This document shows positions 513 through 27,420 of a stretch of 64,000 bases of DNA, piece by piece. Position 1 is the stretch's first letter; every line of letters starts with the position of its first letter. This DNA comes from Siphonobacter curvatus (GTDB lineage: Bacteria > Bacteroidota > Bacteroidia > Cytophagales > Spirosomataceae). Below the pieces are notes generated by a model, which saw only the letters and a program-made list of their open reading frames with translations, did no database searches and had not been told where the DNA came from. Location: the NCBI RefSeq assembly GCF_002943425.1, contig NZ_PTRA01000007.1, forward strand, positions 1 to 64,000, in the 5' to 3' direction. The position numbers and the translations under genes are program-made.

Positions 513-519
513 CTATATA
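486..519. repeat. 12-bp AT-rich direct repeat at the trpA 3' end
   Basis: TCTATCTATATA occurs at 486-497 and again at 508-519, the second copy overlapping the trpA stop codon. This is a low-complexity duplication with no evident function. Confidence 0.5.
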
Positions 520-1301
520 ATAGTAACAGGACCTTTGATTCCCTGTACGAATGTTTGAATGGTACTGGGTAAATCGCTGCCTTGACTAATGGCTTTGATA
601 AAGGCACTTCCGATAATAGCTCCATTTGCATTTTTGCTAGCCTGCTCGAAAGACTGATTATCGGAGATACCGAATCCGATCAGACGCGGATTCTTCAGGT
701 TCAGGTTGGCAATGCGGTCGAAGTAGGCTTCCTGTTCGGCACTGATGCCCGTCTTAGCTCCGGTGATACTGGCCGACGATACCATATAAATAAAGCCCTG
801 CGATACCTCATCGATATACAGGATTCGTTTCTCGGTGGTTTGCGGCGTAATCAGGAAGATGTTGAGCAGACCGTATTTTTCAAACGTAGGTTTGAATTCT
901 TCTTCATAGACATCCGCCGGAATATCGGGTAGGATTAGCCCATCTACACCTACCTCCTGACACTTCTGGCAAAAGGCCTCCACGCCGAACTGCAGTACGG
1001 GATTGATATAGCCCATCAATAAGACAGGCACGTGGATCTCGTCCCGCATGCCTTCCAGTTGACTAAATAATACTTTCAGCGACATGCCATTTTCCAGAGC
1101 CCGTTGATTGGAAGCCTGAATGGTTTCTCCATCCGCTACCGGATCCGAGTACGGCATTCCGATTTCTACTAGATCGGCCCCCGCTTCCTGCAGATTCTTT
1201 AAAATGGTACGGGTATCGTTAAGTTGGGGATAACCCGCCGTAAAATATACATTGAGCAACTTTTGCGATTGCTGCTGAAAAAGCTGAGTAATGCGATTCA
1301 T
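513..1301 (-). CDS. trpA: Tryptophan synthase alpha chain
   Basis: TrpA cleaves indole-3-glycerol phosphate to indole and glyceraldehyde 3-phosphate and passes indole through the tunnel to TrpB. The 262-residue protein has the usual length of the TIM-barrel family. The two catalytic acids are visible as Glu46 in VEIGMPYSDP and Asp57 in PVADG, matching Glu49 and Asp60 of the enteric enzyme. The phosphate-binding segment near the C-terminus (GFGIS, then GAIIGSAFIKAI) is present. It starts with ATG 27 bases after trpB on the same strand, so trpB and trpA form one transcript under the attenuator at 2558-2677. Confidence 0.97.
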   Translation of the reverse strand: MNRITQLFQQQSQKLLNVYFTAGYPQLNDTRTILKNLQEAGADLVEIGMPYSDPVADGETIQASNQRALENGMSLKVLFSQLEGMRDEIHVPVLLMGYINPVLQFGVEAFCQKCQEVGVDGLILPDIPADVYEEEFKPTFEKYGLLNIFLITPQTTEKRILYIDEVSQGFIYMVSSASITGAKTGISAEQEAYFDRIANLNLKNPRLIGFGISDNQSFEQASKNANGAIIGSAFIKAISQGSDLPSTIQTFVQGIKGPVTII

Positions 1302-1328: not shown

Positions 1329-2543
1329 TTACAGGTATTTCATATAGGTAGCTAAATCCTTGTCACCGCGACCGGACAGATTCACTACGACTACTTCATC
1401 GGGCGAAGCATTCAGAGTTTTTAAACAAGCCAGAGCGTGGGCTGATTCCAAAGCCGGAATAATTCCTTCCAGTTTAGCCAGTTGAAAGCCGGAAGCCAGG
1501 GCTTCTTCATCGGTAATGGCCTTGAAAATGCCGCGACCGCTCGTGGCCAAGTTGGCGTGCATGGGACCGATTCCGGGATAATCCAGACCCGCCGAAATCG
1601 AGAAAGGTTCTACGACCTGGCCATCTTCTGTTTGCATGAGGATACTGCGACTTCCGTGTAACACGCCGGGTTTTCCTAGAAAGGTAGTCGCTGCCGAATG
1701 CCCCGATTCCACACCCATACCCGCTGCCTCCGCCGCTACCAGTTTTACCGATGCATCGTTCAGAAAGTGATAGAAAGCTCCCGCCGCATTGGAACCGCCG
1801 CCAACGCAGGCAATCACGTAATCGGGTAACTCAGAACCCGTTTTTTCAGCGAGTTGGTTGCGTATCTCTTCCGAGATGACCGACTGAAAGCGGGCTACCA
1901 TATCCGGGTACGGGTGCGGACCTACGACACTACCTATTATATAATGCGTATCGACGGGGTTATTAATCCAGTGACGCATGGCTTCGTTGGTGGCATCTTT
2001 CAGGGTGCGCGAACCGCTCGTGGCGGGTCGTACTTCCGCACCCAGCATTTTCATCCGGGCTACGTTGGGAGCTTGCCGTTCGATGTCGATCTCGCCCATG
2101 TATACAATACATTCGATGCCCATCAGAGCACACACCGTTGCCGTTGCTACGCCGTGCTGACCAGCTCCGGTTTCGGCTACGATTTTGTTTTTACCCAAAC
2201 GTTTCGCCAGCAAAATCTGACCGATGGTATTGTTGACTTTGTGAGCACCGGTATGACAAAGGTCTTCCCGCTTGAGATAGATTTTCGTGTTGTACACCTC
2301 CGAAAGACGCTCGGCCAAGTACAAGGGCGTTGGGCGACCGACGTAATCCCGTAACAGGTATTCGAATTCGGCCTGAAACGAAGGATCGGCCATGATCGTT
2401 AAATAGTTCTCCCGTAACTCTTCCACGTTCGGGTACAACATTTCAGGAATGAAGGCTCCACCATAAGGTCCGTAATATCCTCGCTCGTTCACCTGAAAAG
2501 CACTGGTAACCTGGTCTGCAATTTTCATACGATTCGAATGCAT
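1329..2543 (-). CDS. trpB: Tryptophan synthase beta chain
   Basis: TrpB is the PLP enzyme that condenses indole with serine to give tryptophan. The PLP lysine is Lys102 in [10 protein letters not shown], the catalytic glutamate is Glu124 in [10 protein letters not shown], and the phosphate-binding GGGSNA loop is present. The length (404) is normal for the type-1 enzyme. Two ATG starts are possible: 2543 gives MHSNRM, and 2528 gives MKIADQV, which looks closer to the usual N-terminus. The 2543 codon is only nine bases after the U-run of the terminator at 2558-2581, so the attenuator abuts the gene. Confidence 0.97.
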
Positions 2544-2551
2544 TGGCTAAT

Positions 2552-2581
2552 AAAAAACCCGCTGTTCGGCTGAACAGCGGG
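2552..2581 (-). terminator. trp attenuator terminator (segments 3:4)
   Basis: On the minus-strand RNA a perfect 10-bp stem (CCCGCUGUUC with GAACAGCGGG, loop AGCC, 2558-2581) is followed directly by six U (2552-2557). This is a textbook intrinsic terminator placed between the leader peptide and trpB. Its 5' arm and loop (2566-2578) can instead pair with 2619-2631, which would dissolve it. Confidence 0.9.
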
Positions 2582-2644
2582 CGTGTATATAAGGACTAGT
2601 CCATGTACGCAAAAGAAGGCTGCTCAACCGAGATTTCTCAGCTG
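2566..2644 (-). promoter_or_regulatory. trp attenuator: pause hairpin and antiterminator
   Basis: Two competing structures can be read in the minus-strand RNA. The pause hairpin 1:2 is CAGCUGAG (2644-2637), loop AAAU, CUCGGUUG (2632-2625), eight pairs including wobbles. The antiterminator 2:3 is UCGGUUGAGCAGC (2631-2619) paired with GCUGUUCAGCCGA (2578-2566), 13 pairs with two wobbles, and it uses the 5' arm of the terminator. A ribosome stalled on the three Trp codons (2645-2653) would cover segment 1 and free segment 2 to form the antiterminator. A ribosome reaching the UGA stop (2624-2626) covers segment 2 and lets the terminator form. The arrangement follows the classical ribosome-mediated model; that it works this way here is inference. 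Confidence 0.85.
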
Positions 2645-2677
2645 CCACCACCATGCTTTTGCGAATGAATTGTTCAT
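2624..2677 (-). CDS. trpL: trp leader peptide, 17 residues with a Trp triplet
   Basis: This very short reading frame begins with ATG at 2677 and ends with TGA at 2624-2626. It encodes MNNSFAKAWWWQLRNLG. Three consecutive TGG codons (2653 to 2645) in 17 codons are far beyond chance and are the hallmark of a tryptophan-sensing leader. It lies 80 bases upstream of trpB on the same strand, with pause, antiterminator and terminator pairings placed exactly as in the enteric trp leader. There is no clear Shine-Dalgarno sequence, as usual in Bacteroidota. The peptide itself probably has no function beyond ribosome positioning. Confidence 0.88.
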   Translation of the reverse strand: MNNSFAKAWWWQLRNLG

Positions 2678-2751: not shown

Positions 2752-5043
2752 TTAAACGCCTTCTTCCTTGTAGACCCGAACTTCCATTAACGCGGCGGGT
2801 ACCGTAGCCGATGGATGCTCCAATTGAATCGTAAGTTGACGAGCTGTGATGGATTTGTCGAAAGTAATCGTGCGTAAGGTCTGATGGTTGGCCTGTTCCT
2901 GGGCTAGGACGTTCCCGTTTTCATCCAGAATCTGGAATCGCTGTACGCAAAAAGGCATAATGCTTTCGGGATGCGTCATGAGTACGTTTTCCATCGGGTG
3001 ATCAAAATCCGCATCGAACGCCAATTCTATCCTACGAATGCGTTGTTTTTCATTCCAGCGTAGCGTTACTCCCGGCTTTGGGTCTGTCAGATCGGCTACG
3101 TAAGCATTGGGATGACTCGTAGGACGTTGCAAGCCATTTCGCAGATTTTCCACCCCAAAAGCGTTGAGTCCTTCCTCTAGCTTCAAGGCCAAATTCAAAC
3201 CTTCCGGACGCCGCTGGGGGCACCAGAATTCAAAGGCATCGACGCCAATGTCTTCCGTAGGTTCCTGTTTTCCGTAATTCGATACGGCAGCATTTACCAG
3301 ATTGAAGACGGAAAGTACACCCGTGATCCGGGTATTTGAATACCGAAACGCTACCTGTTCGTTTTTACGGAAAACCAGAAAAGCGTAGGTCGGTTCGTTA
3401 ATCGTTACATCAAATTCCAGCTTCATGCAGTTTCGTCCCGGTTGCAGGGCCAAGGACTGAGTAGCTACTACTACATCGGGCGTATGATTTTCTGGACGAC
3501 TGCTCAGGCGTAATTCCACTTCCAGGGTCGTAGCTTCCGCCGCGTAGGGATGCACAATCAGGGCAGGGAAACGACCCGCCGCTACCGGCAATAGTTGAGC
3601 TACGGAATACACCATGGGTCGGGGCTCAGTATCTTCGGTCAGCTCCGTAAGTACCAGTTCCGAGCTAGCCGTAAGCTGGGCTTCCTGTACCAGATCCAGG
3701 GGATCGTGGAGTTGTAAGCCAGGAATGTGCTGCCCCCGTTTTTGCAACGCCTGCTGGAGTTGAGTAATTTTTTCGGGCGAAGAAAAATCCCGAGGAAGCA
3801 GGCCCTGCTGCGTACACAACACGGCCGCCATACCAACAGCCTGTCCGCCGTACGCACTCGTGGCCATGACCCGAGCCGAACCAAAGGCGACGTGACTGGC
3901 GGAAATGATTCGTCCCGCCAGGAAAAGATTCTTAATATTTCGGGAATAATAACTGCGGTAAGGAATCCCGTAAAGTCCTTTGCTATGCCATTGATTACAA
4001 CCCGGTTTTTCACTAAAAACCCCGTCCGCGGGATGTAAATCGATGCTCCAGCCACCATAAGCTACGTCGTCATAATGACTTCGCTGCTCGACAATATCCT
4101 GCTGAATGAGCATGTAATCTCCCTCAAAGCGGCGGCTTTCGCGTTTACCGGGAATGGTACCGACCCATTCCAGGGTCATGGTTTCCGCTTCGGGAAACTG
4201 GCCGGAGTTTTTGATGTAATCCCAGACGCCGTACACGACTTTCCACAATTCCCACTTGATTTTTTCCGTATCGTGAACGGTATCCAGCCGACCGCCGTAC
4301 TCCAGCCACCAGAGCTGACAACCTTGCTCCTTGGCGGTGAAGCGGCGGAATCGAGGCACTTCTTTCGTGACGTCAATCGCATAACTCGGAGGAACAAACC
4401 GAACCGGTTTCCCCGTATCCTTGGAATAGAAATACATGGAATGACCCAGCAACTCGCCGTATTCCTGACTTGGGGCGAACTTCTCGCCAAACTCGTCGCT
4501 GGATTCGGCCCCCATTCGAAAGGCAGCACCCGCTAGAAAGCCTACAATTCCATCGCCCGAAGCATCACAGAATAGCGGTGCGGACAATTCGTAACTGGTG
4601 GAATTTTGACTACAGAAAGCAAATACTTTCGAAATAGTATCCGGGTCAGACTTCTCCAGATCATGTACAGCCGTGTTGAGCAAGAGGGTAATGTTAGGCT
4701 CCTGTACGACTTTCTCCAGAATAACGGTATCAAAAATCAGTGGATTCCCCTCCGGATTGCGGTACATATTTTCCACCAGCAATTCATCCAGCACACCCCC
4801 TTCCCTGGCCCAGCGGTTGTTATTGCCCATGTGGGAAGTAGCCCCTAATACCCAGAGTCGTACTTCACTGGACGCATTTCCACCCAGTACTGGTCGGTCG
4901 GTTACCAGGATGACGCGAATACCCGCCCGAGCCGCCGTAATTGCACAACAGGTTCCGGATAACCCACCTCCGACTACTACTAAATCGGCGTTTAGTGAAA
5001 CGGTGGCGGGATTTCTTTTCTCACTTACGTCAGATCGGATCAT
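2752..5043 (-). CDS. FAD-dependent oxidoreductase with C-terminal beta domain
   Basis: This is a flavoprotein of the FAD_oxidored type (PF12831-like) common in Bacteroidota sugar loci and often mislabelled xanthan lyase. Near the N-terminus it has the dinucleotide-binding motif VVVGGGLSG, followed by GGNASSEVRLW, then CDASGDGIVGFLAG and FLAGRIISASHVAFGSARVM near the end of the flavin domain. The C-terminal 250 residues look like beta-rich modules similar to discoidin folds. I chose ATG 5043 (763 residues): a longer frame from 5172 would overlap the preceding GH2 gene and add an unrelated N-terminus. No clear signal peptide is seen from this start. It is the last gene of the minus-strand carbohydrate operon. 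The substrate is unknown; a role in oxidising a sugar or uronic acid is a guess. Confidence 0.85.
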   Translation of the reverse strand: MIRSDVSEKRNPATVSLNADLVVVGGGLSGTCCAITAARAGIRVILVTDRPVLGGNASSEVRLWVLGATSHMGNNNRWAREGGVLDELLVENMYRNPEGNPLIFDTVILEKVVQEPNITLLLNTAVHDLEKSDPDTISKVFAFCSQNSTSYELSAPLFCDASGDGIVGFLAGAAFRMGAESSDEFGEKFAPSQEYGELLGHSMYFYSKDTGKPVRFVPPSYAIDVTKEVPRFRRFTAKEQGCQLWWLEYGGRLDTVHDTEKIKWELWKVVYGVWDYIKNSGQFPEAETMTLEWVGTIPGKRESRRFEGDYMLIQQDIVEQRSHYDDVAYGGWSIDLHPADGVFSEKPGCNQWHSKGLYGIPYRSYYSRNIKNLFLAGRIISASHVAFGSARVMATSAYGGQAVGMAAVLCTQQGLLPRDFSSPEKITQLQQALQKRGQHIPGLQLHDPLDLVQEAQLTASSELVLTELTEDTEPRPMVYSVAQLLPVAAGRFPALIVHPYAAEATTLEVELRLSSRPENHTPDVVVATQSLALQPGRNCMKLEFDVTINEPTYAFLVFRKNEQVAFRYSNTRITGVLSVFNLVNAAVSNYGKQEPTEDIGVDAFEFWCPQRRPEGLNLALKLEEGLNAFGVENLRNGLQRPTSHPNAYVADLTDPKPGVTLRWNEKQRIRRIELAFDADFDHPMENVLMTHPESIMPFCVQRFQILDENGNVLAQEQANHQTLRTITFDKSITARQLTIQLEHPSATVPAALMEVRVYKEEGV

Positions 5044-5111
5044 ATACTCTTTTCTAGTTAGGGTTGACAGTACGCCGTAGTTCGCTGGCTCCTTGCCAGA
5101 GCTGACAGTTC

Positions 5112-7136
5112 CTACTTCGTTTCGGTTAAGTGGATGGTTTCGGTCAAAATGGGGATGCCCGTCGGTTTCCATACGTCCAGCGTCAGCATTCGGTCAAAGC
5201 CGACGACGGGAACGCGAACCTCGACAGAGGCTCCGGGCTTTAATTCCGGAATCGGTATGGTTTGATCGGATGTCTTGATCTGGTAGTTGCGAAGCGTATA
5301 GGCTGGGAAATCGCCCCGAGCCGTTACTTTGATGATTAGCTCATGTACCCCCTGCCCGCCGGGTTGCCAGCGTACTTTTTCGAGGGTAAGGGGTGCCATT
5401 TCGCTGCGGTACACGGCATACGCGGGTCGGGGCGTACGGTCGGGGCCTACCAGTCCCCAGGGGCGGTACCCGTTCGGAGCGGTACCCACGTAACGACTCT
5501 GGTAATCGTTGTACGTCCACCACGACGCTCCAACTACGTACGGCCGTTTACGGATCAGCTCGGCTACCTCTGAAATATGTTTGGCCTGTCCCGCTTCACC
5601 ACCACTGGCATCGGCCCGAACGCCCCACTCACTGATCAATACAGGTTTGTCGGGATACAGCGAATGAATGTGATCCAGGGCTCGGGCGTGGTTGCCGTAG
5701 GTGTTGGTCGAAACAAAATCGCAGTATTGAGAAGCTTCGTCTTCGGCTCTTTTCGGCAGGATATTGAGTCGCATACTGGCGAAGGTGTAGAGTCGCGTGG
5801 GATCCAGTTCGCGACTCCAGGCAATCAGATCTTTCGTCCAGCGTTGACCGGCGGGCTGCTCTGACAAATACTCATTTCCAACGCTGTAGGCGATGATGCT
5901 GGGGTGATTCCAGTCCCGTTGCATCATTTCAGTAAACTGCTGTTTGAATTTGTTCCGAATGGTATCACTATCCATTTGCTTGGGCGTGAGTTGCCAATTG
6001 CCCGCTTCGGCGATGATGAGCATACCGTATTGATCGGCCAGTTCGTAGAATCGTTCGCTGGGCGTATAGTGCGTCAGCCGCTGGAATTCCATACCGGCTT
6101 CTTTCATCAGGCGAAAGTCTTTTTCAATGAGCCAGTCTGGTTCGAGCGAGCCTAAGCCTGGGTAGTCCACAACGCGGTTGGCTCCGGCTAGTTTCAAAGG
6201 TTGACCATTGAGTAGCAGTTGCGTTCCTTTCACTTCCACTTTCCGTATGCCAAAGCTTGTTTTCAGCGTATCGCCCGCAATAGCCACTCGCAACTGATAC
6301 AGATTCGGATCATCCAGATCCCAGCGTTTGACATCTGCCGCTTTGAGACTGGTTTCTGCCTCCAGTACACCGCTTTGACTCCCGGCGATGGAGGTACTTA
6401 ACATTTTCCAGGATACCGGGATGGTACGGTGCTTCTGTTGGAGTGTGAAGGAAAGTTTGGGAGCATTAGCCTGCTGCGAAGCATTCCGAATAAAGGCTTT
6501 CACTTTCAATGTAGCCGTACCTTTAACCAGATCGGGCGTGGCCTCTACCTTGAGGTTCTGCAGGTAAACTTCGGGTTCAATGGTCAGGTACACCGGACGA
6601 ATCAGACCGCCGTAGTTCATCCAGCCCATAAAAGGATCGTTGGGCGAATCGCCATCTTTCGAGCCGGGAATGGACCCTTCTTGCCAGGTATCATTAGTAA
6701 TGGATAGGGCTAGCAGGTTTTCTCCATTTTTTAGAAAATCTGTAATGTCGAAGGAAAAGGGCGTATATCCTCCCTCGTGCGTACCGACTTTCTGGTCATT
6801 CAGCCAGAGCGTTGTTGCGTAGTAAGCCGCATCAAAATGCAAAATCACCCGCTTGCCCGTCTGTACCTGCCAGGGAAAACTCTTTTTGTACCAGACCAAG
6901 CCCGTGAAGAATTGATACCGGGGGTCGGCCGAAAAGCAGTGCGGTACCGTAACCTGATCCCAGTTGCGTCCTTGTGCGTTGGAAGCCAGGGTATACCAGC
7001 CCTTCTGCACGCCTACCTGGCGGGGGTCCATGGCAAACAGCCATTTGCCGTGCAAGGGAATCGCATTCGACTCGCGGATGGTGTACTGGGCGGATACCGA
7101 GAAGGATACGAAAAGAAAGAAAAGGAATGATTTCAT
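5112..7136 (-). CDS. Glycoside hydrolase family 2 enzyme
   Basis: This is an exo-acting beta-glycosidase of the beta-galactosidase/glucuronidase/mannosidase family. A Sec signal peptide (residues 1-17, ending SVSAQ) sends it to the periplasm. The sugar-binding jelly-roll domain (about 20-190), the Ig-like domain (about 190-300) and the TIM barrel (about 300-570) occur in the usual order. The acid/base is Glu422 in YSVGNE and the nucleophile Glu503 in LISEWG. At 674 residues it is a short GH2 without the extra beta-galactosidase domains. It lies 30 bases after the symporter gene and 68 before the oxidoreductase. The exact sugar specificity cannot be read from sequence; beta-glucuronidase or beta-galactosidase are the likeliest. 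Confidence 0.9.
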   Translation of the reverse strand: MKSFLFFLFVSFSVSAQYTIRESNAIPLHGKWLFAMDPRQVGVQKGWYTLASNAQGRNWDQVTVPHCFSADPRYQFFTGLVWYKKSFPWQVQTGKRVILHFDAAYYATTLWLNDQKVGTHEGGYTPFSFDITDFLKNGENLLALSITNDTWQEGSIPGSKDGDSPNDPFMGWMNYGGLIRPVYLTIEPEVYLQNLKVEATPDLVKGTATLKVKAFIRNASQQANAPKLSFTLQQKHRTIPVSWKMLSTSIAGSQSGVLEAETSLKAADVKRWDLDDPNLYQLRVAIAGDTLKTSFGIRKVEVKGTQLLLNGQPLKLAGANRVVDYPGLGSLEPDWLIEKDFRLMKEAGMEFQRLTHYTPSERFYELADQYGMLIIAEAGNWQLTPKQMDSDTIRNKFKQQFTEMMQRDWNHPSIIAYSVGNEYLSEQPAGQRWTKDLIAWSRELDPTRLYTFASMRLNILPKRAEDEASQYCDFVSTNTYGNHARALDHIHSLYPDKPVLISEWGVRADASGGEAGQAKHISEVAELIRKRPYVVGASWWTYNDYQSRYVGTAPNGYRPWGLVGPDRTPRPAYAVYRSEMAPLTLEKVRWQPGGQGVHELIIKVTARGDFPAYTLRNYQIKTSDQTIPIPELKPGASVEVRVPVVGFDRMLTLDVWKPTGIPILTETIHLTETK

Positions 7137-26619: not shown

Positions 26620-27420
26620 CTATAAGGTTACGTATTGCAAGCCTCCCACCAAGTCAGCGAGAGCATTTCCGGGAACGGGCGTTTTCATGAAGTTTTCTCC
26701 AATCAAGAAGCCCCGGTATCCGGCTGCGTATAACTGATGAATCGTCTCCACACTGCTCAGGCCACTTTCTGACACTTTAACAAACTCATTGGGGATTTGT
26801 TCAACCAGTTGCAGCGAGGTATCGACTGAAACCTGAAACGTTTTCAGATCCCGGTTATTAACGCCTACCAGATTCAGATACGGATTCAGGCTGCGTTCGA
26901 GTTCTTCTTGATCATGTACTTCCAGTAGTACTTCCAGATTCAGGGATTGAGCAAACTGCCCTAAGTGCTTGATTTCTTCGGGACTAAGGCAGGCGGCAAT
27001 CAACAGAATAACGTCGGCACCCCAGGCTTTGGCTTCCAGAATCTGGTACTCATCCACGATGAAATCCTTGCGTAAGATCGGTGTTTGGGGGTTTGATTTA
27101 CGGGCCAGCTTTAAATCGTCGGCATCTCCGCCGAAAAACTCTTCGTCCGTCAATACCGATAATCCCGCGGCTCCGGCCTGAGCGTAGGCCAGGGTCACTT
27201 CTTCTACCTGTACCCGATCGTTGATCGTACCTTTCGAGGGTGACTTACGCTTAAACTCGGCGATGATTCCCGTGGAGTTTTCTTTCCGTAACTGACCGCT
27301 CAGCGAATTTCCGGTACGGCTAAAAGCGGGAAACAACTCCAGTTCGCGGGCTGCAATGTTGGCTTTGGCCTGGGAAATTTCTTTTCTTTTGTGCAGAACG
27401 ATCTTTTCAAGAATATTCAT
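26620..27420 (-). CDS. trpC: Indole-3-glycerol phosphate synthase
   Basis: TrpC closes the indole ring to make indole-3-glycerol phosphate, the substrate of TrpA. The family motifs IIAEFKRKSPSKG (catalytic Lys region), ILRKDFIVDEYQI, LVGVNNRDLKTF and VSESGL are all present in a 266-residue TIM barrel of normal length. It is 24 bases after the pseudouridine synthase gene and may be co-transcribed with it. No Trp-codon leader was seen upstream, and trpE, trpG and trpD are not in the window. Confidence 0.96.
   Translation of the reverse strand: MNILEKIVLHKRKEISQAKANIAARELELFPAFSRTGNSLSGQLRKENSTGIIAEFKRKSPSKGTINDRVQVEEVTLAYAQAGAAGLSVLTDEEFFGGDADDLKLARKSNPQTPILRKDFIVDEYQILEAKAWGADVILLIAACLSPEEIKHLGQFAQSLNLEVLLEVHDQEELERSLNPYLNLVGVNNRDLKTFQVSVDTSLQLVEQIPNEFVKVSESGLSSVETIHQLYAAGYRGFLIGENFMKTPVPGNALADLVGGLQYVTL

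Follow-up and report, generated by a model that had tools for sequence, protein, structure and literature searches.

In the leader of the Escherichia coli trp operon (trpL; Rfam RF00513), which has two Trp codons, the RNA segments pair in the alternatives 1:2, 2:3, and 3:4, and the stop codon of the leader peptide lies in segment 2. For the Bacteroidetes, the accessible portions of three papers describe related predictions: a probable cis-regulatory RNA named Bacteroid-trp (Rfam RF01692) was reported by Weinberg et al. 2010 (PMC2864571); a 2019 paper compared it with the E. coli trp leader and located it in Flavobacterium psychrophilum, upstream of the trp operon (PMC6414381); and a 2021 paper on the same bacterium saw "strong clues" that amino acid operons are attenuated through leader peptides (PMC9723704). 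An earlier note on the DNA analysed here had set trp attenuation in the Gammaproteobacteria against a poorly described control of Bacteroidota trp genes; with Bacteroid-trp already predicted in the phylum, the element is less novel than that implied. Among the literature matches listed, which were mostly open-access, none describes a trp attenuator in Siphonobacter or the Cytophagales.

The window (the whole stretch of DNA analysed) comprises 64,000 nucleotides of Siphonobacter curvatus, the host (contig NZ_PTRA01000007.1, positions 1-64,000), and contains a leader element upstream of trpBA. This leader shares with E. coli trpL the logic of Trp codons, alternative 1:2, 2:3, and 3:4 pairings, and a stop codon in segment 2; unlike trpL, it has three Trp codons, and it is placed before trpBA and again before trpE. 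It shares with RF01692 a Bacteroidetes host and a Trp-rich leader before trpB or trpE, as seen in six RF01692 loci that were fetched from other genomes of the class and carry WWW or WW leaders (genes assigned by eye). The leaders of F. psychrophilum come from the same phylum, but from a flavobacterium and not a cytophagale.

RF01692 has no match in the window at its gathering cut-off (49 bits) and none at 2450-2800 even at E-values up to 10; a large search with stricter filters listed the host genome and four genomes of the same order as unmatched and gave matches in 6 of 149 genomes of the class. RF00513 was rejected (14.8 bits, E = 2.5, against a gathering score of 41), as were three other weak Rfam matches far below cut-off. 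No T-box or other Rfam leader or riboswitch reached its gathering score in the window, where only four tRNAs were matched. We have filed the element under a known kind, the ribosome-mediated trp attenuator of Bacteroidota, of which it would be a member beyond the reach of the RF01692 model.

Anatomy of the trpBA Leader

All features of the element lie on the minus strand. A leader ORF of 17 codons (trpL, 2677-2624) encodes MNNSFAKAWWWQLRNLG followed by TGA; direct reading places its ATG at 2677-2675 and its stop codon at 2626-2624, and the ORF is kept in all six Siphonobacter genomes of the family sample (L089-L094). Three tandem TGG (Trp) control codons, likewise read directly, occupy 2653-2645. 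They are followed by a predicted pause or protector hairpin between segments 1 and 2 (CAGCUGAG/CUCGGUUG, 2644-2625; eight pairs and a loop of 4 nt). Segment 2 (UCGGUUGAGCAGC, 2631-2619) holds the leader stop codon and forms the 5′ side of a putative antiterminator, the 3′ side of which is segment 3 (GCUGUUCAGCCGA, 2578-2566); the two pair over 13 positions, two of them G-U. Segment 3 overlaps the 5′ arm and loop of an intrinsic terminator formed by segments 3 and 4 (CCCGCUGUUC-AGCC-GAACAGCGGG followed by UUUUUU, 2581-2552), with a 10-bp stem and a 4-nt loop; because segment 3 is common to both helices, terminator and antiterminator are mutually exclusive. The coordinates given in the earlier note for the ORF, hairpin, antiterminator, and terminator proved exact to the base, and its placing of the stop codon inside segment 2 was correct.

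Downstream are trpB (tryptophan synthase beta, 1329..2543) and trpA (tryptophan synthase alpha, 513..1301), both on the minus strand; judging by matches in relatives, the start codon of TrpB is probably the ATG at 2528 and not that at 2543. TrpB of Siphonobacter sp. BAB-5405 shares 99% identity with the host protein, in keeping with the earlier note's placing of the DNA among the Cytophagales. Ahead of the leader ORF, a promoter-like motif, TAAGTTTG (2711-2704, minus strand), fits TAnnTTTG, which we take to be the Bacteroidota consensus for promoters of the -7 type, and the motif is present in 9/9 Siphonobacter trpB-leader loci read (representing six genomes). Transcription would start a few bases 3′ of this motif; the earlier note had named a start downstream of 2624 as fatal to its reading, and the motif would place it upstream of the ORF.

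Folding of the 151-nt leader region gave z = -3.8, a stability equalled by 1 of 200 shuffles. When the segment-2 region was shuffled 200 times, no shuffle matched the antiterminator duplex; for the pause hairpin, 5 of 100 shuffles did as well.

Conservation across the Family

TrpE was searched for in 150 genomes of the host's family. Model TIGR00564 gave matches in 150/150, none above its curated cut-off, so trpE was assigned by best score; five genomes (G009, G010, G025, G083, and G128) had no good full TrpE match and were dropped, and from each of the remaining 145 as much as about 600 nt preceding the best match was taken, less where a contig ended early. Upstream of trpE, 140/145 loci have a short ORF containing adjacent Trp codons on the sense strand versus 8/145 on the antisense strand (the WW-containing ORF counted in G136 is not the leader), and WWW in 105/145 versus 0/145. 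Under a stricter rule, 142 of the 145 loci have a leader: 105 with WWW, 32 with WW, and five with a single Trp. As for the other three, G092 and G116 have WW leaders past the distance limit of the rule, and G062 has no leader within the upstream stretch read. The earlier note had made its reading depend on conservation of the TGG run in relatives, and this conservation is what the survey found. Outside the run, the peptide differs strongly between genera, while the run itself is mostly retained.

A terminator of -12 kcal/mol or below follows the leader in 140 of the 142 loci, versus 2/142 in shuffled regions (one shuffle per region); the scan tolerated an A between stem and U tract, and Spirosoma-type terminators have one A there. 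Only the trpE copies of the host (L157) and of G060 (L149) depart from this, their hairpins being without a U tract. In 120/140 leaders, the pairing of segment 2 with the 5′ arm of the terminator beats at least 190 of 200 shuffles, and in 132/140 the distance from the first codon of the Trp run to segment 2 is 22-28 nt, counted from one codon earlier for leaders with one or two Trp. An overlap of stop codon and segment 2 is seen in 105/140 leaders; in the other 35 the stop codon lies outside the computed segment 2, which we count against the classical reading, as we do the fact that just 52/140 pause hairpins outperform 95 or more of 100 shuffles. In the 110 nt preceding the Trp codons, TAnnTTTG occurs in 98/139 trpE leaders versus 27/139 on the antisense strand.

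The five single-Trp leaders (L206, L192, L216, L203, and L207, from G106, G114, G131, G146, and G136, respectively) have retained the terminator; their peptides have the form N-x-W-Q-G, and other members of the same genus, g13, have two Trp.

Covariation of the helices was assessed in an alignment of 56 leaders (53 trpE leaders across genera and three Siphonobacter trpB leaders), and covarying stems, which the earlier note had said should be looked for, are present in the terminator and the antiterminator. In the terminator, 98.7% of cells are paired and 10 of 11 pairs show changes on both sides. In the antiterminator, 77.6% of cells are paired, 11 of 13 pairs show such compensatory changes, and the covariation score was reached by 0/500 shuffles; versions of the helix slid along the alignment have at most 48.7% of cells paired, a comparison biased in favour of the register counted in that the structure was written from the window's own row. 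The two outermost antiterminator pairs have letters in only 17-20 of the 56 rows. The pause hairpin has 68.7% of cells paired and moderate covariation; its score exceeds that of shuffles, but its doubly changed pairs are no better than shuffles (383/500 reach the count), and it is the least supported part of the attenuator.

Proposed Mechanism and Alternatives

We consider it very probable that the trpBA leader is a classical ribosome-mediated transcription attenuator. This claim of the earlier note gains support from the Trp run, the covarying terminator and antiterminator, the nearly fixed spacing of segment 2, the promoter motif, and the trp genes downstream. The transcript would begin ahead of the leader ORF, which a ribosome would translate into MNNSFAKAWWWQLRNLG. 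Under a shortage of charged tRNA-Trp, this ribosome would stall on the three TGG codons and cover segment 1, its reach over the RNA segments being that generally known for stalled ribosomes; segment 2 would be left free to pair with segment 3, the terminator would be blocked, and polymerase would enter trpBA. When tRNA-Trp is charged, the ribosome would reach the stop codon and cover segment 2, hairpin 3:4 would form, and transcription would end at the U tract. In a leader that is not translated, hairpin 1:2 would leave 3:4 free to terminate. We infer the stalling, the release, and the dependence on tRNA-Trp charging from the sequence, and likewise the coupling of transcription to translation at the leader. 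The switch needs a ribosome close behind RNA polymerase, and its wide conservation therefore argues for transcription-translation coupling in the phylum; in the portions of the sources available, no direct test of such coupling in the phylum appears among the literature matches listed.

A chance hairpin next to a chance ORF is ruled out by the family survey, the shuffle control of the terminator, and the covariation; Trp-run ORFs conserved upstream of trpE across the family are the reason why the attenuator is not a product of chance. The terminator sits between two genes of the same strand, as would be expected if it simply ended transcripts of the upstream oxidoreductase gene (2752-5172) and the small ORF were meaningless. 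However, across the family the leader upstream of trpE has been kept, together with its Trp codons and the helix that competes with the terminator, and in BAB-5405 other DNA directly precedes the conserved promoter-leader block. Because the Trp codons and the antiterminator are conserved, we regard this explanation as refuted and its residual probability as negligible.

Two further alternatives accept the leader peptide and give it another role. Being short, containing Trp, and lying before tryptophan-related genes, the peptide could be an arrest peptide like TnaC, sensing free tryptophan and not the charging of tRNA-Trp, but the genes downstream are biosynthetic, and what recurs is a set of adjacent Trp codons before the exclusive 2:3 and 3:4 pair. 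The peptide around the Trp run, moreover, varies between genera, which from what is known of TnaC would be unexpected for an arrest peptide; we think this alternative very unlikely. A role mainly in trans, through the peptide or the terminated RNA, has a precedent in Sinorhizobium, where the trp leader peptide peTrpL is reported to act in this way (accessible portion of PMC7298713). Against it stand the strong variation of the peptide outside the Trp run and the covarying, competing helices, which a role in trans leaves unexplained. It is very unlikely that such action is the main function here, and a trans role in addition to attenuation could exist.

Distribution beyond the Family

A covariance model, R1, was built from the 56 aligned leaders. 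At E ≤ 0.001 it picks out just two places in the 6.39-Mb host genome, namely the leaders of trpE and trpB; within the window it finds the trpB leader and, at 363-408, a match that is weak and partial (17.2 bits, E = 0.12). R1 also matches 6/6 of the RF01692 loci when these are searched directly (30.8-46.6 bits). With E-values that are rough, its matches extend to 74 of 148 genomes in the order (63 belong to families other than the host's) and to 39 of 149 in the class; these 39 include three of the six RF01692 genomes, the other three scoring 30.8-35.4 bits in the direct locus search.

Thirty of the 31 R1 loci outside the family were read, L306 being left out because it duplicates L121. Of the 30, 28 have an ORF with WW or WxW and 25 a trp gene downstream (by eye, 23 trpE-like and two trpD-like); in the remaining five the downstream part is lost at a contig end. 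Because the Trp codons belong to R1, only the downstream genes are independent evidence for these loci.

A Split Pathway with Two Leaders

The trp genes of the host lie in three pieces: trpE, which lies on another contig together with trpG- and trpD-like ORFs (identified by eye); trpBA; and trpC (indole-3-glycerol phosphate synthase, 26620..27420, minus strand). A search of the 450 nt preceding trpC found no Trp-run leader. With an adjoining trpF-like ORF, trpC spans 27420-25923 of the window, and this pair stands behind an ORF resembling an RluA-like pseudouridine synthase (both neighbours identified by eye).

The host trpE leader (MNVSFAKAWWWQLGSLR) and the trpB leader (MNNSFAKAWWWQLRNLG) are clearly related in DNA. 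In a leader tree, the six Siphonobacter leaders (three trpE and three trpB) group together with support 98/92, a long and unsure branch (G007) lying among them; this grouping points to copying within the genus or at its base. In the 98 of 110 trpB loci examined, R1 found the trpB leader in Siphonobacter alone; several of these loci are the same genome from two collections (L105-L108, L110-L114, and L116-L118 were left out of the search); the lone other match at these loci, L020, is weak (27.3 bits) and lies downstream of trpB. In genus g31, which includes Runella, trpB is away from trpE in 11 of 12 genomes read (trpE was not well matched in the g31 genome G128), and R1 matches none of its 12 trpB loci (L095-L104, L109, and L115). 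With g31 split and no trpB leader found there, a split operon is not in itself enough to account for the second leader.

The host trpE copy, the hairpin of which is without a U tract, may not cause intrinsic termination. Between attenuator and trpE, both this copy and that of G060 contain a stretch that by eye resembles the 5′ half of a tRNA. A limited scan of ORFs of 6-45 codons in the 600 nt upstream of the domain matches of hisG and pheA in the host genome, made upstream of each gene itself whatever its place in an operon, revealed no leader with adjacent His codons or with adjacent Phe/Tyr codons. Both this negative and the missing U tract of the host trpE copy weigh against the attenuation reading.

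tRNA Genes beside the Leader

In 32 of 145 trpE loci, a gene for tRNA-Pro(CGG) lies directly upstream of the leader on the same strand (for example, at 305-379 in L178, 278-352 in L226, 307-384 in L164, and 3097-3171 in L128); loose ARAGORN settings gave mostly noise and were excluded from the tRNA calls. TAnnTTTG is absent from the 110 nt upstream of the Trp codons in all 32 of these loci and present there in 98 of the 107 loci without tRNA-Pro, three leaders with short flanks having been left out of the count. The motif starts instead 13-19 nt upstream of the tRNA in 32/32; in the whole stretch from tRNA to Trp codons it occurs in 1/32 (G142), just beyond the 110-nt window. The arrangement fits co-transcription of tRNA-Pro and trp leader, apparently from the tRNA promoter. 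No description of it was found among the literature matches listed, mostly open-access.

One genome of the 145 (G065, locus L205) has a tRNA-Trp(CCA) gene at 249-322 on the minus strand (68 bits), between the attenuator terminator and trpE. From its position, this tRNA-Trp may be controlled by an attenuator that senses it.

The two leaders of Siphonobacter and the tRNA-Pro loci of its relatives can be read jointly as a promoter-leader-terminator cassette that is portable, having been copied in Siphonobacter and being driven by the tRNA-Pro promoter in relatives; we hold this joint reading to be about evenly balanced between right and wrong. On such a reading, trpEGD and trpBA, but not trpCF, would answer a common tRNA-Trp signal through separate leaders. 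In a sizeable set of relatives, Spirosoma among them, the leader would have lost its own promoter and would use that of the upstream tRNA-Pro(CGG), so that the attenuator mRNA would start as the trailer of a tRNA precursor and take its 5′ end from tRNA processing.

Implications

The host's family, missed by RF01692 where tested, gains a well-supported trp attenuator, and R1 provides a more sensitive model for this element than the published one. The tRNA-Pro arrangement is an unusual architecture, and the leaders with one and with two Trp in genus g13 form a natural series of sensitivity. For Siphonobacter, the new details are trp genes in three pieces, two of which have related leaders; this pair of leaders offers a natural test of common control over a dispersed pathway.
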